The position numbers and the translations under genes were made by a program. A stretch of 48,598 nucleotides of DNA, from assembly GCA_017518185.1 (NCBI GenBank), contig JAFWWB010000014.1, positions 1 to 48,598 on the forward strand, written 5' to 3'. Each line of letters begins with the position of its first letter. Positions within the stretch are counted from its first letter, which is position 1. Origin of the DNA: Lachnospiraceae bacterium (GTDB taxonomy: Bacteria > Bacillota > Clostridia > Lachnospirales > Lachnospiraceae). Shown one piece after another: positions 24,377-48,026 of this stretch. The notes under the pieces are model-generated. The model searched no databases, had not been told where the DNA came from, and saw only the letters and a program-made list of their open reading frames with translations.

Positions 24377-24410
24377 ACCTATTGACATAGTAGGTAAATA
24401 GTTGTACATT
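24377..24410 (+). promoter_or_regulatory. Promoter and putative Rrf2 operator of the sulfur operon
   Basis: A consensus TTGACA (24382-24387) and TACATT (24405-24410) are 17 bases apart. An inverted repeat ACCTA (24377-24381) / TAGGT (24391-24395) straddles the -35 box. Since the first gene encodes an Rrf2-family regulator, this is a plausible autoregulatory operator. The repeat is short, so the assignment is inference. Confidence 0.6.
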
Positions 24411-24451
24411 GTAACCCACAGGTTAATGCATCCATCACGGGGGAAAGCTTT

Positions 24452-24898
24452 ATGAGAGTATCGACCAGAGTGGAATACGGAATGCTGGCGCTGGTAGACA
24501 TAGCCATGTATTCGGAGAGCGGCAGCAGTGTGTCGACGGCGGACATAGCAGGCAGGGAGAACATCTCCCAGAAATACCTGGAGCAGATACTGCCGCTGCT
24601 CAGACAGGCGGGTCTGATAAAAGCCCAGAAGGGCCTGAAGGGCGGCTATTACTTAAGCCGTTCTGCGGACAAGTTCACCATGTCGGACATACTTAACGCC
24701 CTGGACAACAGCATTCTGGAAGAGATGGAGGTCACGGGCAGCGTGAATGACGGCGGTCTCAGGGATACGGTCAACAGCTGTCTCTGGGGAAGGATCAACA
24801 GCGAGCTCAACCGGTACGTGGAAAACATGAGCTTTGCGGATTTCCTGAGTGAGTGCAGGAACAATACCCCGGGCCAGTGGGATCTCTATTCTATCTGA
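24452..24898 (+). CDS. Rrf2 family transcriptional regulator (CymR-like)
   Basis: The 148-residue product has the Rrf2 winged helix at its N-terminus: MRVSTRVEYGMLALVDIAMY, then ADIAGRENISQKYLEQILPLLRQAGLI and KGLKGGYYLSR. The IscR cluster of three cysteines is missing; the only Cys residues are in NSCLWG and SECRNN. This favours the CymR type, which controls cysteine and sulfur genes in Firmicutes, over an Fe-S sensor. The last part (NNTPGQWDLYSI) is slightly longer than in many CymR proteins. It is the first gene of the operon and lies 16 bases before the metY-like gene, so its target is probably this operon. CymR proteins usually act with a cysteine synthase partner; none is encoded here. 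Confidence 0.85.
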   Translation: MRVSTRVEYGMLALVDIAMYSESGSSVSTADIAGRENISQKYLEQILPLLRQAGLIKAQKGLKGGYYLSRSADKFTMSDILNALDNSILEEMEVTGSVNDGGLRDTVNSCLWGRINSELNRYVENMSFADFLSECRNNTPGQWDLYSI

Positions 24899-24914
24899 TA
24901 AAGGAAATCGTACA

Positions 24915-26159
24915 ATGGACTGTAATTTCAATACAAGGCTCCTTCACGGAGCAACATCGGCGGGCTACGGCAACAGGGAGATCCTGCCTCCGGTATCACA
25001 GGTAACGGCATTCCGTTACGAGAGCATGGAAGAGCTGGAGAAGGTCTTTGCCCACAAGAGCATGGGCTACGCCTACACCAGGATAGGAAATCCCACTGTC
25101 GCAGCTTTTGAGCAGAGGCTTAAGGAACTGGAAGGAGGCGTCGGCGCAGTCTGCTGCAGCAGCGGCATGGCAGCCATCACGGCGGCACTGCTGGCGGTCT
25201 GTGAGAGCGGCAGCGAGATCATCGCGGGAAACGGCCTTTACGGCGGCACCATAGACCTTTTAAAGGATCTGGAGCGCTTCGGCATCCATACGGTATACGC
25301 TAAAGCCCTGAGCCCTGATGTGGTGTCGGAACTTATAAACGAACGTACAAGGGTGATATTCGGGGAGTTGATAAGCAACCCCTCCCTTTCTGTAATAGAT
25401 GTGCCGGAGCTTTCGAAAACGGCGCATGAGGCGGGGATACCACTCTTCGTGGATTCCACGACGGCAACGCCCTATCTGGCCTCACCCCTTAAACTGGGGG
25501 CCGACGTGGTGATACACTCCACCTCCAAATACATCAACGGCGGAGGCAGCGCCATAGGCGGCGTGATCATAGACGGCGGGAAGTTCAGCTGGGATTTTGA
25601 AAAGCATAAAGCCCTGGAGGAGTTTAAGAACTATAAAAAGATGGCCTTCATAGTGAGGCTCAGGACCGACCTCTGGGAGAATCTGGGAGGCTGTATGGCC
25701 CCCATGAACGCCTTCCTCTCCTTTACGGGAGCGGACACCCTGGGCCTCAGGATGGAGCGGATCTGCGAGAATGCGGATGCCCTGGCAAAGGCCCTGGCGG
25801 AGGAAGAGGGGATCAGCGTCAACTACCTTACACTCCCGGATCATCCTTTTCACGGATATGTCGAGAAGGAGCTTAACGGAAAGGGCGGAGGGATACTCAC
25901 CTTCCGTGCAGGCTCGAAGGAAAGAGCCTTTAAGATAATAAATTCACTTAAATACGCGATGATAGCCAGCAACATAGGCGACCTGAGAACGCTGGTGATA
26001 CATCCCGCATCCACGCTCTACATACGGTCCGGAAAGGCGGAAATGGAAGCTGCCGGCGTATATGAGGACACCGTAAGGGTCAGTGTGGGAATAGAGGACA
26101 AGGAGGATCTTATCGATGACTTCAGGAAGGCGGTCAGAGGCTGTAGCGATCAACACTGA
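24915..26159 (+). CDS. O-acetylhomoserine sulfhydrylase-like PLP enzyme (MetY/Cys-Met metabolism)
   Basis: The 414-residue product is a Cys/Met metabolism PLP enzyme, most similar in layout to O-acetylhomoserine (thiol)-lyase. Start: MDCNFNTRLLHGA. Motifs: YAYTRIGNPTVAAFEQRLKELEGG (residues 52-75), SSGMAAITAALL (82-93), FVDSTTATPY with the cofactor Asp (near 180), and HSTSKYINGGG with PLP Lys205. It would join a sulfide equivalent to O-acetylhomoserine to give homocysteine. In Wolinella a MetY accepts sulfur from a protein thiocarboxylate, and the neighbours here (JAMM, E1, carriers) match that pathway. AAGGA precedes ATG 24915. Cystathionine gamma-synthase activity cannot be excluded. The next gene starts inside this one. 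Confidence 0.85.
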   Translation: MDCNFNTRLLHGATSAGYGNREILPPVSQVTAFRYESMEELEKVFAHKSMGYAYTRIGNPTVAAFEQRLKELEGGVGAVCCSSGMAAITAALLAVCESGSEIIAGNGLYGGTIDLLKDLERFGIHTVYAKALSPDVVSELINERTRVIFGELISNPSLSVIDVPELSKTAHEAGIPLFVDSTTATPYLASPLKLGADVVIHSTSKYINGGGSAIGGVIIDGGKFSWDFEKHKALEEFKNYKKMAFIVRLRTDLWENLGGCMAPMNAFLSFTGADTLGLRMERICENADALAKALAEEEGISVNYLTLPDHPFHGYVEKELNGKGGGILTFRAGSKERAFKIINSLKYAMIASNIGDLRTLVIHPASTLYIRSGKAEMEAAGVYEDTVRVSVGIEDKEDLIDDFRKAVRGCSDQH

Positions 26160-26559
26160 TCTGTACTGGCAGCTGGGTGAGCATGCCAGGCTTTCCTATC
26201 CCAATGAGTGTTGCGGGATCCTGTTCGGAAGCGTTGAGAGGAGTGATAAAAACCGGGTGGCAGTGGTCATACCGGGAGACAATTTAAGGGAGGAACCCGG
26301 ATCGCATTACGGCATCGATCCCATGACTCTGTACAGGGCCGAGAAGACCTGGGCGGGCAGAGGCTATGAGGTCATAGGCTTCTATCATTCCCATCCCGAC
26401 TGTGAGGCAGTGCTCTCGGAGGAAGACGAGCTGAAGATGGTGCCGGAACAGATATACCTGATACTTTCCGTTGACAAAACGGGCTGCCGCGGCCTCAGGG
26501 CCTGGCGAAAGAAGGACATTGAGACTGATGCAGAGGAGCTGGAGGTAAAAAGGGCATGA
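26116..26559 (+). CDS. JAMM/Mov34 (M67) metalloprotease 1
   Basis: The 147-residue product has the full JAMM zinc site: Glu31 in NECCG, His91 and His93 in FYHSHPD, Ser101 and Asp104 in LSEED. Bacterial single-domain members (QbsD, Mec+, HcyD) trim residues after the Gly-Gly of MoaD/ThiS-like sulfur carriers, or cut the amino acid from carrier-cysteine adducts. Start choice: ATG 26116 has AAGGAGG nine bases before it, though it lies 44 bases inside the upstream gene. No later start codon is available before the conserved region. The next gene begins in an ATGA overlap. Its likely target is one of the two carrier domains in this operon, perhaps the fused one next door. Confidence 0.85.
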   Translation: MTSGRRSEAVAINTDLYWQLGEHARLSYPNECCGILFGSVERSDKNRVAVVIPGDNLREEPGSHYGIDPMTLYRAEKTWAGRGYEVIGFYHSHPDCEAVLSEEDELKMVPEQIYLILSVDKTGCRGLRAWRKKDIETDAEELEVKRA

Positions 26560-28013
26560 AGATATATATATCCGCCACACTGAGATCCTTTTTCGGAAGG
26601 AACGCGGGACTTGAGGCGAGAGGAAACAACATAAATGACATCCTGCAGGAGCTCATCAGGATCTATCCCGATTCGGAGAAGGTGCTCAAGAGTGAAGACG
26701 GAAAGCCCGCTGCTTTCATACGCATCTTTGCGGGAGAAGAGGATATGACGGATCCCGCAAGGCACGGGGAGACCCTTAAAGAGGGCACGGAGCTTCTGTT
26801 TCTACCGGTGATAGCAGGCGGATCGCCCCATGTTCCCCTGGTATCCGATGAGCGGAGAAAGGAAGTGAACCTGGACGATAAGGAGATCGAGCGTTTCAAC
26901 AAGCATCTCCTCCTCAGGGAGATAGGCGTTAAGGGCCAGAAAAGGATAAAGGCCGCGAAGGTCACTGTCTTCGGGGCAGGAGCCCTGGGTTCCCCGGTGA
27001 TACAGTATCTGGCGGCAGCAGGTGTAGGAAGCATAAGGATCGTGGATCCGAATGAGGTGAGATTGGAGGATCTCCAGTGCCAGGTGCTCCACAGCCAGAG
27101 GGATCTTAAGCGCCCGAAGGCAGCCTCCGCAAAGGATAAAGTAAGGAATATCAACCGTGATATCGAGGTCACGGCTGAGAATCTGACACCTGATGCCGGG
27201 AACGTGATGAGCCTTATAGAGGGCAGCGATCTGGTGATCGACTGCTCGGATAATTTCAGATCCAGATATATCATAAACGATGCCTGCGTACTCTGGGGCA
27301 TACCCCTGGTGTTCGGCGCTGTTTACCAGTTTGAGGGCATGGTCAGCGTGCTCAACCACGAGAACGGACCATGCCTGCGCTGTCTCTTTCCAGAACCGCC
27401 TGCGCCGGGGCTTGTACCTACCTGTGCTGAGGGTGGCACCATCAGTCCCCTTTCCGGCATCATCGGGAGCATCCAGGCAAATGAAGCCCTGAAGCTGATC
27501 ATGGGAGTGGGAGAGACCCTTTCCGGCAGGCTCCTGAGGGTCGATACCTTCGGGCTGAGGACGGATCTGCTCAGGGTGAAGAAGAATGAAAGCTGCCGCA
27601 TCTGCAGCGCCAAAGCGGACATAACGGAGGTGGAGGATTTCGATTACGAGGAGTTCTGCGGTCTTAAACAGGACGAGAACGAGATACCTGTGGAGGGCTT
27701 CACCGTAGAAGAGCTGACACACAGGATAGAGAGCGGCGATCCGCTCACCATAGTGGATGTGAGGGAGCCCCACGAGCGGGCAATACTCCGTTTCCCGGGA
27801 GCGAAGGTCATACCCATAGGCCAGCTGGCAAGAAGGCAGAACGAATTAAGCCCGGACATCGATACCGTTTTCATCTGCAGGCAGGGAAAGCGGAGCATCC
27901 TGGCCATCAATACGCTGCGTGAGGCCGGCTACAAAGGCCCTATGTACAACCTCAAGGGAGGGATGGATGCCATGAAGGATGTCATCTTCTCCAACGAGGG
28001 CGGATGGCTGTAA
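26556..28013 (+). CDS. MoaD/ThiS - E1 (MoeB/ThiF) - rhodanese triple fusion
   Basis: A 485-residue protein with three sulfur-transfer domains. Residues 1-90 form a MoaD-like beta-grasp carrier ending in VIAGG (Gly88-Gly89), followed directly by more protein rather than a free end. Residues about 105-355 form an E1-type adenylating domain: nucleotide loop FGAGALGSP (139-147), zinc pairs C273-x2-C276 and C347-x2-C350, and Cys290 in VPTCAEGG, as in MoeZ/Uba4. Residues about 378-485 form a rhodanese with active loop CRQGKR (Cys441). E1-rhodanese pairs such as MoeZ load sulfur on carriers such as CysO. Here the carrier is fused to its own E1, so release or folding back is needed; the adjacent JAMM protease could cut after Gly89. 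Translation is coupled upstream (ATGA). Confidence 0.9.
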   Translation: MKIYISATLRSFFGRNAGLEARGNNINDILQELIRIYPDSEKVLKSEDGKPAAFIRIFAGEEDMTDPARHGETLKEGTELLFLPVIAGGSPHVPLVSDERRKEVNLDDKEIERFNKHLLLREIGVKGQKRIKAAKVTVFGAGALGSPVIQYLAAAGVGSIRIVDPNEVRLEDLQCQVLHSQRDLKRPKAASAKDKVRNINRDIEVTAENLTPDAGNVMSLIEGSDLVIDCSDNFRSRYIINDACVLWGIPLVFGAVYQFEGMVSVLNHENGPCLRCLFPEPPAPGLVPTCAEGGTISPLSGIIGSIQANEALKLIMGVGETLSGRLLRVDTFGLRTDLLRVKKNESCRICSAKADITEVEDFDYEEFCGLKQDENEIPVEGFTVEELTHRIESGDPLTIVDVREPHERAILRFPGAKVIPIGQLARRQNELSPDIDTVFICRQGKRSILAINTLREAGYKGPMYNLKGGMDAMKDVIFSNEGGWL

Positions 28014-28030
28014 AAATTTATATCATAGCT

Positions 28031-28094
28031 GATAAGACGCCCTGAGCAGGCCGGAAATACACCATAGCTATGGACAAGACTTTGGGCGTTTATC
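28031..28094 (+). promoter_or_regulatory. Stem-loop ahead of the encapsulin gene
   Basis: GATAAGACGCCC (28031-28042) pairs with GGGCGTTTATC (28084-28094), with one bulged G. The loop contains a perfect 12-base palindrome CCATAGCTATGG (28062-28073). This is the longest gap of the operon (113 bases). There is no T-run, so it is more likely a processing or stability element, or a protein-binding site, than a terminator. Confidence 0.5.
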
Positions 28095-28126
28095 AAATAA
28101 ATATCATTCCATGGAGGAAAAAAGAC

Positions 28127-29083
28127 ATGTCTAAAGAAGCAGAAGCAAAAGTCGGTATCAACGCGCTTGGTGCGGCAGCAGCCTATAATCTGGCCAATGT
28201 GACCAAGACAACACCCCAGTTCGGTGCGCTCACTCCCAAGTGGCTCACAAAATTCCTTGAGTTCAAGGGACTCGAGACCGGTATCTTCCGCGTGAACAGG
28301 GTCGTGGAGGGTGAGACTCCCCTGGATGTACTCTGCAGCCAGACCAAGAAGTCGGACATCATCCCCGACGGTTATGTGGAGTATGAGACGAAGCCCAGGG
28401 AGTATGTGCTCAATTCCATCTCCACCATCATCAACGTGAACACCGCTATCGAAGATGTTTACAGCGCACCCTACGATCAGGTACAGGAGCAGCTTTCCCT
28501 CGCTATCGAGTCCCTTCGTGAGCGCCAGGAGAGCCAGCTCATCAACAACGATGATTACGGCCTGTTAAAGAACGTGGCCGATTCCCAGAGGATACAGACC
28601 AGGAACGGCGCGCCCACTCCAGATGATCTGGACGAGCTCATCACAAAGGTGTGGAAGGAGCCTTCCCTCTTCCTTGCCCATCCCAGAGCCATCGCTGCCT
28701 TCGAGAGAGAGTGCACAAAGCGCGGTGTACCCCCTGTAGTCGTTAACATCGCAGGCGGCACTTTCCTTACCTGGAGAGGCATCCCCGTGATCCCTACTGA
28801 CAAGCTCCTGGTGGACGGCCTTAAGAACCCCACTTCCCAGAGCGGCAAGACCAACATACTGCTCGTCAGGACCGGCGAAGCAAAGCGCGGTGTCATCGGT
28901 CTCTTCCAGGCAAACCTGAAGAACGAGCACTCCAGAGGTCTCTCCGTGCGTTTCCGCGGCATAGACGACAAGGGTGTTGCATCATATCTCTTATCACTTT
29001 ACTGCTCCGCTGCCATACTTGCAGATGATGCGATCGCGGTACTGGAAGATGTGGAGGTAGGTGAATATTATGACTACGATTGA
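28127..29083 (+). CDS. Family 2A encapsulin shell protein (SrpI-like)
   Basis: The 318-residue product is recognised as a family 2 encapsulin, the HK97-fold shell protein of a nanocompartment. Evidence: the N-terminal arm with AAAAYNLANVTKTTPQFGALTPKW, then GIFRVNRVVEG, the middle segment LSLAIESLRERQESQLINND, the loop PTPDDLDELITKVWKEPSLFLAHPRAIAAFERECTKRGV, and the C-terminal RGIDDKGVASYLLSLYCSAAI. No cyclic-nucleotide-binding insertion is present, which fits subfamily 2A rather than 2B. Family 2A shells are known to enclose a cysteine desulfurase, and such a gene follows, overlapping by 14 bases. GGAGG lies nine bases before ATG 28127. The shell should self-assemble in the cytoplasm from many copies. 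It is the strongest pointer to an organelle-like sulfur system. Confidence 0.9.
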   Translation: MSKEAEAKVGINALGAAAAYNLANVTKTTPQFGALTPKWLTKFLEFKGLETGIFRVNRVVEGETPLDVLCSQTKKSDIIPDGYVEYETKPREYVLNSISTIINVNTAIEDVYSAPYDQVQEQLSLAIESLRERQESQLINNDDYGLLKNVADSQRIQTRNGAPTPDDLDELITKVWKEPSLFLAHPRAIAAFERECTKRGVPPVVVNIAGGTFLTWRGIPVIPTDKLLVDGLKNPTSQSGKTNILLVRTGEAKRGVIGLFQANLKNEHSRGLSVRFRGIDDKGVASYLLSLYCSAAILADDAIAVLEDVEVGEYYDYD

Positions 29084-30764
29084 TCAGGAAAGGTCTTTGG
29101 AAGAACAGGCGGGTGTGCCCGGAGCGGCGCAGTTGAGCGTTCTTGCAAATGCGCTGTTTCCCGATCTCACGGAGAGCGTGTACGGAGCTCCCACGGACGG
29201 AATGTCCTATTCCGTTCCGGAAACGCCGGTACAGGCGCCTTCAGCATCTCAGGAGCCCGTGGCAGCAGGGGTTCCCGAAACTCCGGCAGCAGCAGGGGTA
29301 ACCGCGCCGGAAACTCCCGGATACGGGCTTCCTGCGGCATATTCAGCGCCGGAGACTCCCGCCTTCAACTGGGAGGATCCCTTCGGCACCGGAGTTTCGG
29401 AGGCACCCATCTCCTACTCTCCCAGGGTGGTCTCTTCCACGCAGGCGAAGGAAGAGGACCGGAGGGTGGATGCGCCCACCTCACTTGAGGGCGACAGGGC
29501 ATCCGCTTCCGCAGCACAGGAGCAGGGTTCGTCACGCAATTCTTCCATAAGGATAGGCAGCAGGACTCTTGCCCAGATAAGGGACGACTTCCCCATCCTT
29601 AAGGAGAGGATAAACGGAAATCCCCTGGTGTGGCTGGACAACGGCGCCACCACCCAGAGGCCCAGGCAGGTGATCGACCGTCTCAGCTATTACTATGAGC
29701 ATGAAAACTCCAATGTTCACAGAGGGGCGCATACCCTTGCGGCAAAGTCCACCGACGCTTATGAAAGCGCCAGGAACACGGTAAGGGACTTCATCGGCGC
29801 GGGCTCCTCTGAGGAGATAGTCTTTGTCAGGGGAACTACCGAAGCCATAAATCTGGTGGCCAACGCCTATGTGAAGCCGCAGCTGGCTCCCGGTGACGAG
29901 ATCATCGTTTCCATACTGGAGCATCATGCCAACATCGTGCCCTGGCAGCTCATAGCCCAGAAGACAGGCGCGGTGATAAAGGTGATACCCTGCGACGAGA
30001 CCGGGCAGCTGATCCTTTCGGAGTACGAAAAGCTCTTTACGAAGCAGACGAAGTTCGTGGCAGTGACCCATGTGTCCAACGTGCTGGGTACCGTGACTCC
30101 CATAGAGGAGATCATCGCCATTGCCCATCGTCACGGCGTAAGGATACTGGTGGACGGAGCGCAGTCCGTGGCCCACATACCCGTGAACGTTTCGGCGCTG
30201 GATGCGGATTTCTTCGTGTTCTCAGGACATAAGATCTTCGCACCTACGGGCATAGGTGTGGTATACGGAAAGAAGGAGCTGCTGGAGGCGGCGGAGCCTT
30301 ATCACGGAGGCGGCAACATGATCGCGGACGTGACCTTCGAGCGCACCATCTACAACGGCCTGCCCAACAAGTTTGAGGCAGGCACCGGGAGCATAGCGGA
30401 TGCCGTAGGCCTCGGAGCGGCCCTGGAATACTTAAGCGGCATCGGAATGCCCTGCGTCTACCGCTGGGAGCATGAGCTGCTGCAGTACGGCCTTAAGGAG
30501 CTTTCCACCGTAAAGGGACTTACCCTGGTGGGAACCGCCATGAACAAGGCATCTGCCCTGGCCTTCAAGCTGGACGGGCATTCCGACGACGAGGTGGGCA
30601 AGAGGCTGGACGACTACGGCATAGCGGTGCGTACGGGACATCACTGTGCGCAGCCGGTGCTGAGGCGCTTCGGATACGAAGGCGTGGTAAGGCCTACTCT
30701 GGCGCTCTACAATTCACCTGATGACATCGATGCCATGGTGAAGGCACTGAAGAGCTTTGCATAA
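29070..30764 (+). CDS. Encapsulin-cargo cysteine desulfurase (SufS-like) with long disordered N-terminus
   Basis: The 564-residue protein has two parts. Residues 1-165 are a low-complexity extension with QLSVLANALFPDL at 21-33 and four PETP motifs (50-53, 69-72, 80-83, 94-97); extensions of this kind serve to load cysteine desulfurases into family 2A shells. Residues about 166-564 form a class V aminotransferase of the SufS type: LVWLDNGATTQRP, HHANIVPWQ, VDGAQS (362-365), SGHK with PLP Lys388, and RTGHHCAQP with persulfide Cys526. It takes sulfur from cysteine and leaves alanine. ATG 29070 has AGGTG about seven bases upstream and overlaps the encapsulin stop, so shell and cargo are translationally coupled. 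No SufE or SufU follows; TusA may accept the sulfur. Confidence 0.93.
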   Translation: MTTIDQERSLEEQAGVPGAAQLSVLANALFPDLTESVYGAPTDGMSYSVPETPVQAPSASQEPVAAGVPETPAAAGVTAPETPGYGLPAAYSAPETPAFNWEDPFGTGVSEAPISYSPRVVSSTQAKEEDRRVDAPTSLEGDRASASAAQEQGSSRNSSIRIGSRTLAQIRDDFPILKERINGNPLVWLDNGATTQRPRQVIDRLSYYYEHENSNVHRGAHTLAAKSTDAYESARNTVRDFIGAGSSEEIVFVRGTTEAINLVANAYVKPQLAPGDEIIVSILEHHANIVPWQLIAQKTGAVIKVIPCDETGQLILSEYEKLFTKQTKFVAVTHVSNVLGTVTPIEEIIAIAHRHGVRILVDGAQSVAHIPVNVSALDADFFVFSGHKIFAPTGIGVVYGKKELLEAAEPYHGGGNMIADVTFERTIYNGLPNKFEAGTGSIADAVGLGAALEYLSGIGMPCVYRWEHELLQYGLKELSTVKGLTLVGTAMNKASALAFKLDGHSDDEVGKRLDDYGIAVRTGHHCAQPVLRRFGYEGVVRPTLALYNSPDDIDAMVKALKSFA

Positions 30765-30776
30765 GACATGATATTT

Positions 30777-30815
30777 CCGGGCACTGCTCTCCGGGAACAG
30801 TGGGGCAGGGCCCGG
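30777..30815 (+). promoter_or_regulatory. Stem-loop after the desulfurase gene
   Basis: CCGGGC (30777-30782) pairs with GCCCGG (30810-30815), and inside it CACTG (30782-30786) pairs with CAGTG (30798-30802). There is no T-run. Together with the stem-loop at 28031-28094 it brackets the encapsulin-desulfurase pair, so it may protect that mRNA segment after processing. Confidence 0.45.
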
Positions 30816-30838
30816 GTTAAGAGAAAGGAAAAACGAAG

Positions 30839-31045
30839 ATGAAGATCACAGTAGCAGGAGAAAAGAAGGAAGTAGCGGACGGACTGACCGTGAGCGCTCT
30901 GATCGAGCTGGAGAATGTGGAGACACCCCAGTACGTGACGGTCTCCGTGAACGAGGAGTTTGTGGATTCCGAGGGCTTTGAGAGCACGGTGCTCAGGGAA
31001 GGCGACGAAGTCGAATTCCTTTACTTCATGGGAGGTGGCAGATAA
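30839..31045 (+). CDS. ThiS/MoaD-like sulfur carrier protein (HcyS-like)
   Basis: A 68-residue beta-grasp protein: MKITVAGEKKEVADGLTVSA, VTVSVNEEFVDS, and GDEVEFLYFMGGGR. Carriers of this family work with a C-terminal Gly-Gly that is adenylated by an E1 enzyme and turned into a thiocarboxylate. Here two residues (Gly-Arg) follow the first Gly-Gly, so the protein is probably a precursor to be trimmed, as known for QbsE and HcyS by their JAMM partners. AAAGGA precedes ATG 30839. The stop overlaps the ATG of the E1 gene (TAATG), so the two are coupled. It most likely donates sulfur to the MetY-like enzyme, or to thiazole/cysteine synthesis. Confidence 0.88.
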   Translation: MKITVAGEKKEVADGLTVSALIELENVETPQYVTVSVNEEFVDSEGFESTVLREGDEVEFLYFMGGGR

Positions 31046-31857
31046 TGGCGTTTACCAACGAACAGCTTGAACGCTATTCAAGGCACATCATCTTAAAGGA
31101 GATAGGCGCGAAGGGACAGAAGAAGCTCCTTAACGCAAAGGTGCTGATAATAGGAGCCGGCGGACTGGGAGCGCCCGCAGCGCTCTATCTCGCTGCAGCA
31201 GGTGTGGGCACCATAGGCATAGCCGACGCGGATGTGGTGGATCTTTCCAATCTGCAGAGACAGGTGATACATACCACGAACGACATAGGGAAGAGAAAGG
31301 TGGATTCCGCGGCTGAGACCATGCGTGCCATCAATCCCGATGTCACCGTGAATACCTATTATGACTTTGTCAGCAGCGTAAACATCATGGATATGATAAA
31401 GGATTACGACTTTATCCTTGACGGCACGGATAATTTCCCTGCCAAGTTCCTGATAAACGACGCCTGCGTCATGGCAAAGAAGCCTCTGAGCCATGCGGGC
31501 ATCATACGCTTCAAGGGGCAGCTCACCACCATACTTCCGGGAGAAGGCCCCTGCTACCGCTGTATCTTCAAGAATCCGCCCCCGAAGGATGCGGTGCCCA
31601 CCTGTAAGCAGGCAGGTGTCATCGGAGCCATGGGCGGCGTGATAGGTTCGCTGCAGGCCATGGAGGCCGTGAAGTACATCACCGGCGTGGGAGAGCTTCT
31701 TTCCGGATATCTCCTCACCTATGATGCGCTGAAGATGGAATTCCACAAGATCAAGCTGCCTCCCCGCGGAAAAGGCTGCGCGGTCTGCTCCGACACCCCC
31801 ACCATAACTGAGCTCATAGATTATGAGCAGGCAGCATGTGATATGAAGGCACATTAA
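31045..31857 (+). CDS. E1-like adenylyltransferase (ThiF/MoeB/HcyF type)
   Basis: The 270-residue product activates the C-terminal Gly of a sulfur carrier with ATP. Motifs: RYSRHIILKEIGAKGQKKL at the start, nucleotide loop IIGAGGLGAP (35-44), DADVVDLSNLQRQ (61-73), DGTDNFPAK (126-134), zinc pairs C170-x2-C173 and C245-x2-C248, and Cys187 in VPTCKQAG. It has no rhodanese domain, unlike the fused E1 at 26556. The stop-start overlap with the carrier gene makes that carrier the obvious partner. The sulfur could come from the desulfurase directly, from TusA, or from the rhodanese domain of the fusion protein. Confidence 0.9.
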   Translation: MAFTNEQLERYSRHIILKEIGAKGQKKLLNAKVLIIGAGGLGAPAALYLAAAGVGTIGIADADVVDLSNLQRQVIHTTNDIGKRKVDSAAETMRAINPDVTVNTYYDFVSSVNIMDMIKDYDFILDGTDNFPAKFLINDACVMAKKPLSHAGIIRFKGQLTTILPGEGPCYRCIFKNPPPKDAVPTCKQAGVIGAMGGVIGSLQAMEAVKYITGVGELLSGYLLTYDALKMEFHKIKLPPRGKGCAVCSDTPTITELIDYEQAACDMKAH

Positions 31858-31872
31858 AGAGGATAAAGCCCA

Positions 31873-32301
31873 ATGAAGATCACGATAAGAGAAGCAGATT
31901 TCAGACTTATCCTCGATCACGCCCTTGCGGAGCGTCCGGACGAGGCCTGCGGCCTTATTGCCGGCACTGACCGTGAAGACGGGGTGCGGGAGATAAAAAA
32001 GGTATATCTGCTCACAAATACCGATCATACCAACGAACACTTCTCGATAGACCCGAAGGAGCAGCTGGCGGCCATAAAGGACATGCGCGCCAACGGCCTG
32101 AGTCCTCTCGGGAACTGGCACTCCCACCCGGAGTCGCCCTCCAGGCCTTCGGAGGAGGATAAGCGCCTTGCCAACGACAGCAGGGCCAGCTATCTGATCC
32201 TCTCCCTTCAGGAGGAGGGTGATCCGGTGCTCAACGCCTTCCATGTCGAGGGTGAGCAGGGAAGCCGCGAAGTGCGGAAGGAAGAACTGGAGATCGTATA
32301 A
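31873..32301 (+). CDS. JAMM/Mov34 (M67) metalloprotease 2
   Basis: A second 142-residue JAMM protein with its own complete active site: Glu24 in PDEACG, His83 and His85 in NWHSHPES, Ser93 and Asp96 in RPSEED. It differs clearly from protease 1 (HSHPESPSRPSEED here versus HSHPDCEAVLSEED), so it is not a recent duplicate. The position 15 bases after the E1 gene and close to the free carrier suggests it trims the Gly-Arg tail of that carrier, in the manner of HcyD or QbsD. AGAGGATAAAG precedes ATG 31873. Confidence 0.87.
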   Translation: MKITIREADFRLILDHALAERPDEACGLIAGTDREDGVREIKKVYLLTNTDHTNEHFSIDPKEQLAAIKDMRANGLSPLGNWHSHPESPSRPSEEDKRLANDSRASYLILSLQEEGDPVLNAFHVEGEQGSREVRKEELEIV

Positions 32302-32305
32302 AAAA

Positions 32306-32337
32306 GGCATCAGGGCTCCTGCGGAGCCACTTCATGC
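32306..32337 (+). repeat. Stem-loop repeat B, copy 1
   Basis: GGCATCAGGGCTCC and GGAGCCACTTCATGC flank a TGC loop. A second, longer copy lies at 32723-32760. Each stands just before the ribosome binding site of a gene (TusA here, lipoprotein there). The two halves pair mainly through GGCTCC/GGAGCC and GCAT/ATGC. Confidence 0.6.
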
Positions 32338-32361
32338 AAAACCAGAAAAGGAGGAACAACC

Positions 32362-32607
32362 ATGGCAGCCATAACACCCGATGATAAGATAGACATCACA
32401 GATGTGGTGTGCCCGGTCACCTTTGTGAAGACCAAGGTGGCTCTGGAGGAAATGGACGAGGGACAGATACTGCAGGTACACATCAACGACGGTGAACCCA
32501 TACAGAACGTCCCCCGCAGCATAAAGGAAGAGGGCCACAAGGTCCTTGCCATCGACGACAACGGCGACGGAACCTATGAGCTTTTCATAGAGAAAGTCGG
32601 AGACTGA
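32362..32607 (+). CDS. TusA-like sulfur carrier protein
   Basis: An 81-residue protein of the TusA/SirA fold: ITDVVCPVTFVKTKVALEEM with the persulfide Cys17, then GQILQVHINDGEPIQNVPRS and EEGHKVLAI. The usual CPxP motif reads CPVT, a variant I associate with TusA-like proteins in sulfur-assimilation gene clusters of Firmicutes; the Cys is kept. It should accept sulfane sulfur from a cysteine desulfurase and hand it to a rhodanese or E1 partner. GGAGGAACAACC precedes ATG 32362. It is the last gene of the operon; a UUCG-loop terminator follows 13 bases after the stop. Confidence 0.88.
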   Translation: MAAITPDDKIDITDVVCPVTFVKTKVALEEMDEGQILQVHINDGEPIQNVPRSIKEEGHKVLAIDDNGDGTYELFIEKVGD

Positions 32608-32620
32608 GCCTCCCATAAAT

Positions 32621-32641
32621 GCCCCTTCGGGGGCTTTTTTT
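32621..32641 (+). terminator. Terminator of the sulfur operon
   Basis: GCCCC (32621-32625), loop TTCG, GGGGC (32630-32634) and seven T. A textbook intrinsic terminator directly after the TusA-like gene. Confidence 0.92.
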
Positions 32642-43990: not shown

Positions 43991-44187
43991 GCCGGCTCAG
44001 TGAGCCTGCAGCGAAGCAATTCTATTGTCTGTATCTATTGTAATAATGCACATAATGTGTCGTTTTGCTATGTGCAATTTCCATAAAGCTGCGATTTTCC
44101 GCAATTGAGTCCGTTTTATTACCCTTTAAAAACGAACAATAGGATCATAAGCTGCTTTTATATGAATGTAAAAAGAGGAGGTGTCGC

Positions 44188-45333
44188 ATGAAGTTTTTAC
44201 ATACATCCGATTGGCATTTGGGAATGACGTTTCGTGGCGGTGTTTCTTATGCGATGGATCAGAGATATGCAATAGAAAAGATTTGTCAGATCGCAGTAGA
44301 CGAGAAGGTTGATGGGATACTGCTTGCCGGAGATGTTTTTGACAAGAGTATAGCATCGGCAGAAGCAGTTCATCTCTATGATGAAGTGATGACATATATA
44401 TGCGGGACCATCGGTATTCCTGTATATCTGATAGCAGGAAATCATGATGGAGCCGAAAGGATATCCCAGTGTAATGAGCTGCTTAAGAAAAGCGGTCTGT
44501 TTATAGCAGGGGCTTTATCGGACACTGCCCAAGTGATAAATGCAGGAGACGTAGATATCTATCTGCTTCCATGGATATCTACAGATAAGGTTAAGTCTGT
44601 TTATCCCGATGAGTCAGATAAGATCAGTTCTATGGAAGATGCATACAAGATCGTTCTTGATAAATACCGGGAATGTTTTGCAGAAGGACATAAAAACATC
44701 ATTGTTGCTCATGCCTTTATTGTAGATGCGGAAACTTCCGTAAGCGACAGAGCGGCTGAGGTGGGAAAAGCAACCATGATCGGTTCCCATGTCTTTGAAG
44801 GATTTGATTATGTTGCATTAGGACATCTGCACGGACCCCAGCAGATCAATGAGAAGATCCGCTATAGCGGAACTCCGATGGCATATTCCTTTGGTAAGGA
44901 AGAAAAACAGGAGAAAAGCGTAACGATCATCGATACCGATACATGGGAGCAGAGGATCATTCCTATACCCCAGCTTCATAAGAGAACGACACTTACAGGG
45001 ACATTCAAGGAACTTATGGATGCTGATCTTGAAGATGAGATCAAAGATGGTTATGTGCGTCTGGAGGTTACGGACAGCTATGTGGGCATGGATTCCATTG
45101 CGGCCTTCAGGGAACGATATAAGAATCTTCTGGAAGTGAGCGGTAAAGGCTTTGAGCGGGATGATGCAAAGATCACGATGACTATAGAAGAATTTGAAAA
45201 TGCCGATACGGATCCTGAGACAGTATTTGCACAGTATTGCAAGGATATTTTAGATGAGGCACCCAACGAACATATGATAGCATTGTTTAAAGAGGCATTA
45301 GAAGGATTCGAGAAGGAGGTAGTTGAAGGATGA
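44188..45333 (+). CDS. sbcD: Exonuclease SbcCD subunit D
   Basis: The 381-residue product is the Mre11-like nuclease of the SbcCD complex, which opens DNA hairpins and removes protein-blocked ends. Phosphoesterase motifs are clear: FLHTSDWHLG (I), LLAGDVFDKS (II), LIAGNHDGAERIS (III), IIVAHAFI (IV) and VALGHLHGPQ (V). The C-terminal capping domain is complete. AGAGGAGGTG precedes ATG 44188. It overlaps sbcC by four bases (ATGA). The two genes are clearly more AT-rich than the preceding 30 kb and use more A/T-ending codons, as do the first bases of the window, which may reflect an acquired block. Confidence 0.95.
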   Translation: MKFLHTSDWHLGMTFRGGVSYAMDQRYAIEKICQIAVDEKVDGILLAGDVFDKSIASAEAVHLYDEVMTYICGTIGIPVYLIAGNHDGAERISQCNELLKKSGLFIAGALSDTAQVINAGDVDIYLLPWISTDKVKSVYPDESDKISSMEDAYKIVLDKYRECFAEGHKNIIVAHAFIVDAETSVSDRAAEVGKATMIGSHVFEGFDYVALGHLHGPQQINEKIRYSGTPMAYSFGKEEKQEKSVTIIDTDTWEQRIIPIPQLHKRTTLTGTFKELMDADLEDEIKDGYVRLEVTDSYVGMDSIAAFRERYKNLLEVSGKGFERDDAKITMTIEEFENADTDPETVFAQYCKDILDEAPNEHMIALFKEALEGFEKEVVEG

Positions 45334-47981
45334 GACCGATAAAAGTTGAATTCCAGGCTTTTGGCCCTTATGTCGGATATGAGAAGGTTGATTTTGAAGC
45401 TATTGCCTCGAAAGGATTGTTTCTGATCTGCGGAAAAACAGGTATAGGCAAGACAATGATCCTTGATGCCATGACATTTGCTTTATATGGTAAGAGCAGC
45501 GGGCACGGAAGGGATGACTTTGAATCCATGCGCTGTACGAATGCAGAGTTTGAGACAGATACTTTTGTGAAGTTTGAATTTGAAAATCATGGTGAATACT
45601 ATCTCTTTGAACGCAGATTAGAGAGAAAAAGGAAGAATCTTTCGGCTGCGTATAATGTGTCCCGCAAAGGAGATGACGGGATCTGGCATCCTCTTATGGA
45701 AAATGCAAAAGAGAAGGCTGTAACTGAGAAAGCAGTGGAAATAATAGGCTTGGAATATGATCAGTTCCGTCAGGTTATCGTACTTCCGCAGGGACAGTTT
45801 GAAAAACTGCTGACATCCGGTTCTGATGAAAAGGAGAAAATACTGACCAGTATTTTCGGAGAAGAAAAGTGGCAGAAAATTGCGGATAGTTTTTATTCAA
45901 AGGCGGATAAGCGTAAGAATGATCTAAAAGAAATTCAGGGAAAGATACGCAATAGTCTTGCTGAGGAAAAGTGTGAAACCATATCCCAGCTTGAAGATCT
46001 GGTGACGAATAAGCAGGATGAGGCAAAGAAGCTTGAGGAAGAGTACAAAGCGGCAAACTATGAGAAGATGATCAGCGAACAGCAGGAAATACTTGCTATT
46101 GTCAAGCGATTTGGTGATCTTCATAAGGCTGAGAAAGATTTATCCGAACTTGAAGGTAAAAAAGAAGAACGGGATGATTGGGAAAACACATTGAATAATG
46201 CGAGGCGTGCCGATAATGTAAGGAAATTTATTGAAGCAGAAAGAGATACATCAAAGAATCTGCAAAAGAGAACAGATGATGAGAAGGCTGCAAAAGATGC
46301 CGCGGAAAAAGCAAAAGATGCATTAAACAAGGCTTCGGAAGAGGTTAAGCTTCATTTGGAGAAAGAAAAGGATATAGAAGAGCTTAAAGAAAAGAAGATC
46401 CGTTTTGAAAGTAAACGGGAGGCATATGATGGCCTTGAGGAAGCAGAAAAGGAACTGAAGACCAGGATAAAAGCTGCTACAATTGCTGTGGACGAAGAAA
46501 AAGCAGCTAAAGAAGCCGGTGATTCCATCGCAAGGAGTATTGTTGACATTCAGAAAGAATATACTACATTACAAACTGAACATGAAGAACTGTTGAATTC
46601 CTATCTTGCAGGGATCACCGGTGAACTGGCCGGACAGCTGGAAGAAGGAAAACCCTGTCCCGTTTGCGGAAGTACTGCGCATCCGCATAAAGCAAAGCTG
46701 GCTGGGAATAGTGTCACAAAAGCAAAAGTGGATTCAAAAAAGAAGGATGTTGATAAAAAATATAACGAACTGCAAGGAAAGATCGGAGAACAGGAAGAGG
46801 TTAAAAAACAGGTAGAAATAAAACATGCTGCAGTAGAAAAAGCAAATAATGAAGTAACATCATCTTCCGAACGTTTAGATAACATAAAGAAGAATCTTGT
46901 TGAAGGTATAGACTCTACCGATAAACTGGAAAATGAGATCGCAAAGATCCGCGGATCGATCGAAGAGTATGAAAAGCGGAAGGAACAGATACTCAGGGCT
47001 GAAAAGCTGGCTAATGAGGCATTTGTAGAAGCAAATACGAAGATCGGGTCGGCAGAGAAGGAAACGAGAGAGGCCGCTCAAGAACACAAGGATGCTGAGA
47101 ATGCTTTGGAAAAGGGCTTGAAGGATAATAACTTTGCATCCGGGGAGGATGCTGAAAAACTTATGCTTGATAAAGAAAAAATGGAAGAACTGTCTTCAAA
47201 GATAATAAAGTATGATGCAGGTTTTAAGACTGCAAAAGAGCTCTTGGAGTCACTAAAGAAGGAATTAGAGGGTAAGGAAGAACCGGATAAAGAAAAATGC
47301 CAAAAGAGCCTTGATGAGGCTCAAGAAGCACAGAAAGAGTACAGTGGAAAAAAAGCTGTATTATCTAAGGAGATAGAAAGACTTGAGAATAAGGTAAAGC
47401 TGCTTAAGCAGGAGGGTGAAGGTTTCGAGGAGAGGATCCGGGAGGCAGAAGAGGACTTTACTTTTGCAAAGAAGCTTCGTGGTGATTCCGGAACAGGACT
47501 TCAGAGATATGTGCTCGGGATCATGTTCTCATCTGTTGTAACTGCGGCAAATAAAATGCTGGAGCTGGTTCACGGCGGAAGATACCGTCTGTATCGTTCT
47601 GATGATAAAGCGCAGGGATCCAATAAGCGGGGGCTTGAGCTTAAGGTCTTCGATAAAAACAGTGATGAGCATGACGGGCGTTTTGTAAGTACACTTTCCG
47701 GAGGCGAGAAATTCCTTACTTCACTTGCACTGTCGATAGGTATGTCCACGGTGGCTCAAAAAAGCGGAATTAAGATAGAAGCACTGTTTATTGATGAGGG
47801 ATTTGGCTCTCTGGATGATGAATCGATAGGAGATGCAATGAGTGTTCTCAACAGTATCCAGGAAGCAAACGGACTTGTGGGAATAATATCCCATGTGCAG
47901 ATCCTGCAGGACCAGATAGCATCGAAACTCCGTGTTGAGCAGGATGCACATGGCAGCCACATTGTCCAGACGGTTGGATGA
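45330..47981 (+). CDS. sbcC: Exonuclease SbcCD subunit C
   Basis: The 883-residue product is the Rad50-like ATPase partner of SbcD. The N-terminal half of the ATPase has Walker A GKTGIGKT (residues 35-42) and the Q-loop at VLPQGQFEKLL. Long coiled coils rich in Lys and Glu run from about 180 to 420 and 460 to 720, with the zinc hook PCPVCGS at about residue 442 in between. The C-terminal half has the signature TLSGGEKFL, Walker B ALFIDEGFGSLD and the H-loop ISHV. Length is on the short side for SbcC but all parts are present. It pairs with SbcD to process hairpin and palindromic DNA. A terminator follows directly. Confidence 0.95.
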   Translation: MRPIKVEFQAFGPYVGYEKVDFEAIASKGLFLICGKTGIGKTMILDAMTFALYGKSSGHGRDDFESMRCTNAEFETDTFVKFEFENHGEYYLFERRLERKRKNLSAAYNVSRKGDDGIWHPLMENAKEKAVTEKAVEIIGLEYDQFRQVIVLPQGQFEKLLTSGSDEKEKILTSIFGEEKWQKIADSFYSKADKRKNDLKEIQGKIRNSLAEEKCETISQLEDLVTNKQDEAKKLEEEYKAANYEKMISEQQEILAIVKRFGDLHKAEKDLSELEGKKEERDDWENTLNNARRADNVRKFIEAERDTSKNLQKRTDDEKAAKDAAEKAKDALNKASEEVKLHLEKEKDIEELKEKKIRFESKREAYDGLEEAEKELKTRIKAATIAVDEEKAAKEAGDSIARSIVDIQKEYTTLQTEHEELLNSYLAGITGELAGQLEEGKPCPVCGSTAHPHKAKLAGNSVTKAKVDSKKKDVDKKYNELQGKIGEQEEVKKQVEIKHAAVEKANNEVTSSSERLDNIKKNLVEGIDSTDKLENEIAKIRGSIEEYEKRKEQILRAEKLANEAFVEANTKIGSAEKETREAAQEHKDAENALEKGLKDNNFASGEDAEKLMLDKEKMEELSSKIIKYDAGFKTAKELLESLKKELEGKEEPDKEKCQKSLDEAQEAQKEYSGKKAVLSKEIERLENKVKLLKQEGEGFEERIREAEEDFTFAKKLRGDSGTGLQRYVLGIMFSSVVTAANKMLELVHGGRYRLYRSDDKAQGSNKRGLELKVFDKNSDEHDGRFVSTLSGGEKFLTSLALSIGMSTVAQKSGIKIEALFIDEGFGSLDDESIGDAMSVLNSIQEANGLVGIISHVQILQDQIASKLRVEQDAHGSHIVQTVG

Positions 47982-47991
47982 CAATATCAGG

Positions 47992-48026
47992 TGAAGGAAT
48001 TTGACATTTCCTTCAGTCCTCTTTTT
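47992..48026 (+). terminator. Terminator of sbcDC
   Basis: TGAAGGAA (47992-47999) pairs with TTCCTTCA (48008-48015), followed by GTCCTC and five T. Confidence 0.75.

Follow-up and report, generated by a model that had tools for sequence, protein, structure and literature searches.

A family 2A encapsulin operon that may couple an enclosed cysteine desulfurase to protein-thiocarboxylate synthesis of sulfur amino acids

Introduction

The subject of this study is a ten-gene operon of a Lachnospiraceae bacterium, lying on a stretch of 48,598 nucleotides (GenBank assembly GCA_017518185.1, contig JAFWWB010000014.1; the whole stretch is referred to as the window), in which a family 2A encapsulin and its probable cysteine desulfurase cargo are encoded together with small ThiS/MoaD-like carriers, E1 enzymes, JAMM metalloproteases and sulfur-transfer proteins. 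The closest described systems are thiocarboxylate pathways on the one hand and desulfurase encapsulins on the other. In the thioquinolobactin path (QbsE, QbsD and QbsC) the carrier has a short tail after its diglycine (GG) that is removed by a JAMM protease, whereas in the window a whole E1-rhodanese follows the diglycine. The Hcy path (HcyS, HcyF, HcyD and MetY) belongs to Wolinella succinogenes. It and the type 4e clusters of Iyer et al. (PMC1779556) resemble the window in a carrier tail after GG, an E1 without rhodanese, a JAMM protease, a TusA/SirA protein and an O-acetylhomoserine sulfhydrylase, which the window's MetY probably is, but Hcy and type 4e clusters carry sulfate-reduction genes where the window operon holds a shell and a desulfurase. 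The mycobacterial system of CysO, MoeZ, CysM and Mec+ (PMC3227635) shares with the window an E1-rhodanese, a carrier and a JAMM protease, and many relatives of the window add a cysteine synthase gene upstream of the first JAMM gene (JAMM1); it differs in that the carrier studied here is mostly fused to E1, the acceptor enzyme of the window is MetY and the genes are linked to an encapsulin.

Among encapsulins, the family 2A system of Synechococcus elongatus, SrpI with its cargo CyD (PMC8049743), has the same shell family and a SufS-type desulfurase with an N-terminal extension, and desulfurase activity and loading have been reported for SrpI shells. An Rrf2 gene, which the window operon shares, lies near the S. 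elongatus locus, together with cysK, a serine acetyltransferase (SAT) gene and a free-standing rhodanese; no JAMM, carrier or E1 is among the listed neighbours, whereas in the window the rhodanese is part of a carrier-E1 fusion and a second carrier module is present. SAT and rhodanese genes beside family 2A shells were reported by Andreas and Giessen 2021 (PMC8346489), operons of carrier, E1 and JAB were listed by Iyer et al. 2006 (PMC1779556), and the chemistry of MoeZ-type E1-rhodanese with CysO is known (PMC3227635). A literature search found no paper joining an encapsulin with a thiocarboxylate, and no encapsulin in papers that combine such terms as ThiF, MoaD and sulfur carrier protein, an absence only as good as the search; the accessible text of PMC8346489 does not mention ThiF, MoaD, TusA or ubiquitin, and that of PMC8049743, neighbourhood supplement excluded, does not mention ThiF, MoaD, JAB or TusA. 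The parts and sub-systems are thus already known, and the novelty lies in their union into one conserved unit.

A conserved unit of shell and thiocarboxylate-type genes

The reading favoured here, to which we assign a probability of about 0.64, is that the locus is a sulfur-regulated operon in which sulfur amino acids are made by a protein-thiocarboxylate route coupled to an encapsulated cysteine desulfurase. A sequence-only reading of the window had listed the ten genes as a single operon and had proposed that a family 2A shell and thiocarboxylate-type genes are united there, to be abandoned if related genomes lacked the synteny. All ten open reading frames (ORFs) are found in place on the + strand (24452-32607), with short gaps or overlaps as expected of one operon and Pfam and NCBIfam models give the expected families, three curated cut-offs (MetY, cargo and CymR) being missed (Table 1). 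The union is borne out by the relatives: among loci with at least 1.5 kb upstream of the shell, a carrier and E1-rhodanese immediately precede it in 92 of 98 that belong to the window's shell clade, but in none of 9 family 2A loci of the outgroup. Since the same genes recur in relatives, the combination is not a matter of chance. Beyond that earlier reading, the present analysis adds the internal diglycine junction, a two-module structure and a shared palindrome or operator.

The relatives were gathered with the shell model NF041162 from three overlapping draws, each including the window's own genome: 98 genomes near the window (13 over the cut-off), 392 of its order (17) and 299 of its phylum (4). 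To these were added the 80 top-ranking loci with a shell alignment in a genome-contig scan, ranked by likeness to clostridial shells, and six plasmid records out of 32 with a match. Four duplicates were dropped, and the remaining 115 loci, counting that of the window, were annotated with profiles derived from the set itself (L numbers below denote loci); the sample is biased, since likeness to the query decided the choice of 80 loci, and several loci from the same genus cannot count as independent. The shell clade has a support of 99 for 104 rows, L129 joining at 85, and the line between clade and outgroup was set after the tree had been seen; the tree was midpoint-rooted for drawing only, its internal support is mixed and long branches are flagged. 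In the less biased set from the genome searches, E1-rhodanese adjoins the shell in 23 of 32 loci, two of the other nine (L042 and L044) having too little upstream sequence. The in-clade loci without this arrangement are L038, L040, L041, L114, L120 and L129, and L126, just outside the clade, has no E1. Among 34 congeners, the shell and an operon-type MetY (at least 73% identity) occur together in nine and are both missing from 23; the shell by itself occurs in none, and MetY by itself in two, whose contigs break off inside the operon or at MetY (Fisher p 1e-6, uncorrected for kinship).

L129 lies on plasmid pACIB of Aliarcobacter cibarius (Campylobacterota), where CysK, JAMM, carrier, E1 and rhodanese pieces are interspersed with insertion sequences and two transposase genes. 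A blastn search with the shell gene of L122 gave no match in Escherichia coli genomes. A single frame running from carrier to encapsulin in L099 (8639-10942) was rejected as an E1-shell fusion, because GGAGG and ATG stand at the shell start and the carrier is frameshifted in the same record; a missing stop or a sequence error is likelier.

Module A and the fused carrier

Judged by gene order across the loci, the operon is built of two separable modules, a division new to this analysis: module A (JAMM1, carrier and E1-rhodanese) is fixed beside the shell, and module B (MetY, TusA, the second ThiS-like carrier, an E1 and JAMM2) changes place. Rhodanese shares an ORF with E1 in 92 of 92 loci, and the carrier is fused to E1 as well in 79 of these and separate in 13, the separate forms falling mostly on earlier branches of the shell tree. 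Family models recognise the fused carrier of the window only weakly (ThiS at 21.8 bits and the MoaD-type models all score below their cut-offs), but it aligns with the separate carriers of relatives; in the AlphaFold model its residues 1-84 form mixed strands and helices.

The diglycine of the window fusion, at residues 88-89, is retained at the internal junction in nearly all of the fused forms. AGG stands there in 78 of 80 fused carriers, and across 31 aligned fusions G88 and G89 are invariant while columns 90 to 116 hold no invariant residue. The spacing from GG to the E1-start motif is 8 to 32 residues, mostly 20 to 27, L096 still counted. In the AlphaFold model of the fusion (31 fused sequences), mean predicted local distance difference test score 82, residues 86-91 (IAGGSP) are the only internal stretch below 50. 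Of the separate module A carrier ORFs, 14 of 15 are complete, the fifteenth (L099) being a frameshifted fragment; AGG is present in 14 of 14, and 12 of them stop 0 to 5 residues past it, L112 and L118 extending by 25 and about 49. In two loci, from a planctomycete and a member of the Thermoguttaceae (L087:7141-8775 and L089:3-1559), the E1-rhodanese fusions have AGE for AGG and a cysteine-rich linker; no JAMM gene was seen in either locus, L089 having only 1.6 kb upstream, and these AGE forms are possibly repurposed carriers.

Adenylation of such carriers requires a free C-terminal glycine, so that a cut after the diglycine must come first. With the diglycine kept at an internal junction, a protease must free the fused carrier, and this is probably a JAMM enzyme, the adjacent JAMM1 being the candidate. 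The need for a free C-terminal glycine is stated for MoaD, and MoaX, a MoaD-MoaE fusion, is likewise thought to need a cut after the glycine (PMC3227635); there the fusion partner is MoaE and the accessible text gives no protease, whereas the carrier of the window is fused to its own E1. JAMM1 accompanies 68 of the 81 loci whose upstream sequence reaches 3 kb, and its HxH..SxxD motif is intact in 73 of 73 loci with JAB1; the ExCG pattern is missing in 6 of 74, the window not among them.

Module B and the acceptor enzymes

Module B is found upstream, downstream or on the opposite strand, and at least three of its four small genes accompany 23 of the 34 module A loci that have 9 kb on both sides. 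Its carriers end in FMGGG or FIGGG with 0-2 further residues (45 of 47), the JAMM2 HxH..SxxD motif is intact in 45 of 45 loci with JAB2, and TusA has CPxTF in 42 of 43. In the window, the features in common with the Hcy type are a small carrier with a short tail after its glycines (the mature end may be GG or GGG), a JAMM with an intact site and an E1 without rhodanese. JAMM2 and TusA form one open frame in L048 (12696-13493) and L050 (9534-10280), a gene fusion tying TusA to module B.

The window operon encodes a single acceptor enzyme, MetY, and neither CysM nor CysK. The best model for MetY is TIGR01326 (O-acetylhomoserine/O-acetylserine sulfhydrylase; 400 bits, cut-off 495), and it falls in a clade of enzymes found in these loci (48 of 60 rows; Shimodaira-Hasegawa-like approximate likelihood ratio test 99), apart from the genome's other copies. 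Among structures it matches 8sf5 best (300 bits) and 3ri6, which we take to be the Wolinella structure, at 275 bits; as 3ri6 is not the closest, no special kinship with Wolinella is claimed. Each of the genome's three full-length PF01053 enzymes has O-acetylhomoserine sulfhydrylase, not cystathionine gamma-synthase, as its best NCBIfam model. In the same 34 loci, SAT lies near 26, CysK near 10, MetY of the operon type near 22 and CysK or MetY near 28. The frequency of SAT and CysK suggests that sulfur often goes to O-acetylserine and yields cysteine, on which the desulfurase itself acts.

These counts divide an earlier proposal, that sulfur moves from cysteine to homocysteine. It is plausible for this genome, given MetY as the only acceptor of the operon and the O-acetylhomoserine sulfhydrylase character of the PF01053 enzymes, but is not supported as the general function: SAT and CysK in relatives make one-way transfer between amino acids unlikely and fit deposit and withdrawal of sulfur better.

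Three ThiF-family genes of the genome are over the cut-off; the one outside the operon (G000:C80:1553-2239) has an internal in-frame TGA and is a selenoprotein or a broken gene.

Shell and cargo

The window shell scores 488 bits with NF041162 (cut-off 380) and 378 with the 2B model (cut-off 400); its only Pfam match is PF19307, and with a 2A score over the cut-off and no cyclic nucleotide (cNMP) domain it belongs to family 2A. The desulfurase is of the SufS type (TIGR01979, 542 bits, cut-off 475), and its match to the cargo model NF041166 (777 bits, cut-off 800) begins at position 199. LSVLANALF in its N-terminal extension resembles LARLANEFFS of the S. elongatus cargo (PMC8049743), and a strict form of this motif is present in 65 of 93 long cargo ORFs; the second motif, AASPYYFLDG, was not seen in the part of the window desulfurase inspected. 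Comparison with relatives places the most likely start of the encapsulin at 28127 instead of 28070, and that of the desulfurase at 29070.

Regulation

The palindrome ACCTATTGACATAGTAGGT precedes the operon, and with up to three mismatches it gives 42 sites in 36 of 116 loci, some of which lack the 5' end of their operon, while the reversed pattern gives none; for 37 of the 42, a gene of these families or a paralogue starts no more than 370 bases away. A 23-base version, again with up to three mismatches, has four sites in the window genome (control 0): at the operon, at a cysteine synthase gene (TIGR01139 over the cut-off) located elsewhere in the genome, at an O-acetylhomoserine sulfhydrylase gene (TIGR01326 over the cut-off) and at an amino-acid importer whose MetI part exceeds its cut-off, unlike the MetQ-, MetN- and cystine-type parts. 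This set of genes is of the CymR type, and the Rrf2 protein scores 78 bits with the CymR model (cut-off 195, not passed). The probable repressor acting at this shared site is the Rrf2 protein, whose binding there is suggested by gene adjacency and by the palindromic form of the site.

A promoter-like site of the sigma-70 type (24382-24410; -35 TTGACA at 24382, -10-like TACATT ending at 24410) precedes the Rrf2 gene, and the operon promoter region is conserved in relatives; the scan is weak alone, with 3 promoter-like sites against 4.2 expected in shuffles and 16 terminator-like sites against 7.9.

In two congeners (L180 and L181), O-acetylhomoserine sulfhydrylase and cysK genes with the same palindrome stand directly upstream of the Rrf2-MetY genes. 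Before the importer genes of the window genome (contig C49, L163:4834-4923), a GTG frame behind GGAGG, 68 bases past the palindrome, reads VKRTSRELMCMCMCHKCFSRAR... and is rich in methionine and cysteine; it may perhaps be a leader peptide sensing these two amino acids.

Table 1. Features of the operon, with window positions and the basis of each assignment
Feature	Positions	Strand	Basis
Palindrome ACCTATTGACATAGTAGGT, probable operator	24377..24395	+	overlaps -35 box
Rrf2-family regulator, possibly CymR-like	24452..24898	+	TIGR00738 92.7 bits, cut-off 73.3
MetY-like pyridoxal phosphate (PLP) enzyme	24918..26159	+	PF01053 341 bits; TIGR01326 under cut-off
JAMM1 metalloprotease (JAB1), module A	26116..26559	+	PF14464 (Prok-JAB)
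Carrier (~1-84)-E1 (~105-350)-rhodanese (383-473) fusion, module A	26556..28013	+	PF00899, PF00581, alignment, AlphaFold model
Family 2A encapsulin shell protein	28127..29083	+	NF041162; SrpI structure 6x8m 369 bits
Cysteine desulfurase, probable cargo	29070..30764	+	TIGR01979 over cut-off, NF041166 just under; N-terminal extension with LANALFPDL
ThiS-like carrier, tail FMGGGR, module B	30839..31045	+	TIGR01683 64 bits, cut-off 37
E1 without rhodanese, module B	31045..31857	+	PF00899 289 bits
JAMM2 metalloprotease, module B	31873..32301	+	PF14464
TusA-like sulfurtransferase, CPVTF, module B	32362..32607	+	PF01206 74 bits
Terminator-like stem-loop (stem 32621-32634) and T run, 3' of TusA	32621..32641	+	terminator scan

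Elsewhere in the window, G+C drops to about 0.42 with strong GC skew at 44001-48000, compared with about 0.54 mid-window; over the whole window no tRNA was found, and no Rfam family at gathering scores.

Proposed mechanism and alternatives

In the mechanism that we propose, cysteine would enter the shell and the cargo desulfurase would strip its sulfur, as shown for the S. elongatus relative. The sulfur would leave as sulfide or persulfide and pass to the rhodanese domain of the E1 fusion in module A and to TusA in module B. Cleavage after the internal diglycine by a JAMM protease, most likely JAMM1, would free the fused carrier, and JAMM2 would trim the tail of the second carrier, both steps being suggested by the junctions. 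Each E1 would then adenylate the glycine of its own carrier, onto which sulfur would be loaded as a thiocarboxylate, in the manner known for MoeB/MoeZ-type enzymes. A PLP enzyme would attach this sulfur to an O-acetyl amino acid (MetY with O-acetylhomoserine here, cysteine synthase with O-acetylserine in many relatives), and a JAMM protease may hydrolyse the adduct to homocysteine or cysteine, by analogy with the CysO/Mec+ and Hcy systems. Across the clade the pathway would be a route withdrawing sulfur handled by the shell, and Rrf2 would let the operon be made with the amino-acid importer, CysK and the housekeeping MetY when sulfur is short.

A more far-reaching picture, which we hold tentatively and at somewhat less than even odds, is that the clade maintains a reversible sulfur bank, in which shell and desulfurase make the deposit, and a locked pro-carrier fused to E1, opened by JAMM, withdraws it as thiocarboxylate into cysteine (CysK and SAT) or homocysteine (MetY).

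Several observations weigh against the favoured reading. JAMM1 is absent from 13 of 81 loci, nine of which have JAMM2 while four have neither on their contigs; and the separate carriers of L113 and L116 end at GG with no tail yet adjoin JAMM1, so that tail removal cannot be its sole role and another, such as adduct hydrolysis, is needed. In 11 of the 34 fully covered loci, no more than two of the four small genes of module B are near. SAT and cysK are outside the window operon, none of whose ten genes encodes them, and the palindrome was not found near the genome's operon-type SAT (contig C85). The cargo, MetY and CymR models all score below their curated cut-offs, and in the Azospirillum and Methylosinus family 2A loci no rhodanese is among the listed genes. 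The SrpI pore is 3.7 Å wide (PMC8049743), so that a desulfurase in an intact shell cannot touch rhodanese or TusA and small sulfur species must cross, and the S. elongatus shell and desulfurase knockouts grow normally, replete or starved (PMC8049743).

That lack of phenotype also suits the strongest rival, in which the two halves are co-regulated but parallel: shell and desulfurase store sulfur, the E1s take sulfide from sulfite reductase or from thiols, and nothing passes from shell to carrier. The Hcy pathway of Wolinella does draw on sulfite-reductase sulfide. No sulfite reductase is among the ten genes by Pfam, and a family like it, so named because it resembles a copy in the window genome that itself falls short of the cut-off of its best model, lies near 7 surveyed loci; in this genome it stands in a row with the operon-type SAT, 78% identical to that of L019 and at a contig end. 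Because the palindrome serves importer, cysK, metY and operon alike, co-location may mean shared demand only. Against these points, module A with its rhodanese acceptor stays by the shell in nearly all in-clade loci while module B moves, and rhodanese is also present in the S. elongatus and Variovorax family 2A loci; we consider the parallel arrangement unlikely, though well ahead of the remaining alternatives.

Much less probable is ubiquitin-like conjugation, in which carrier, E1 and JAMM would modify proteins, perhaps cargo or shell, instead of supplying sulfur. Iyer et al. 2006 proposed conjugation for JAB-associated E1s (PMC1779556), and archaeal SAMP systems pair a carrier with JAMM, but rhodanese, TusA, CysK, SAT and MetY speak of sulfur chemistry, and no E2 family match was found among the window's ten genes. 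Of similarly low standing is cysteine detoxification, with excess cysteine turned into stored sulfur and the carriers merely mopping up leaking sulfide: desulfurase encapsulins have been termed sulfur stores (PMC12407261, PMC12140327), but the operon shares its palindrome with genes for uptake and biosynthesis, and the S. elongatus shell is induced by sulfur starvation (PMC8049743). Sulfur supply for thiamine, molybdopterin or tRNA thiolation, paths that do use a carrier, E1-rhodanese and desulfurase, is the least probable of all, as a PF02597 search of the 99.8% complete genome found only the operon's two ThiS/MoaD domains, which speaks against thiamine or molybdenum cofactor use, and the ten genes match no thiamine-thiazole, molybdenum cofactor assembly or tRNA-thiolase family.

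Significance

For the sulfur released by family 2A encapsulins, delivery to carriers and storage were both left possible (PMC8049743), and the clade described here, read as coupling an encapsulated desulfurase to thiocarboxylate synthesis, offers candidate sulfur acceptors encoded beside the shell. It further provides a naturally occurring fusion of a carrier with its own E1, and ties encapsulins to thiocarboxylate amino-acid synthesis in rumen and gut bacteria. If the locked pro-carrier is real, a ubiquitin-like protein held inactive by fusion to its own E1 would be a new way of carrier control.

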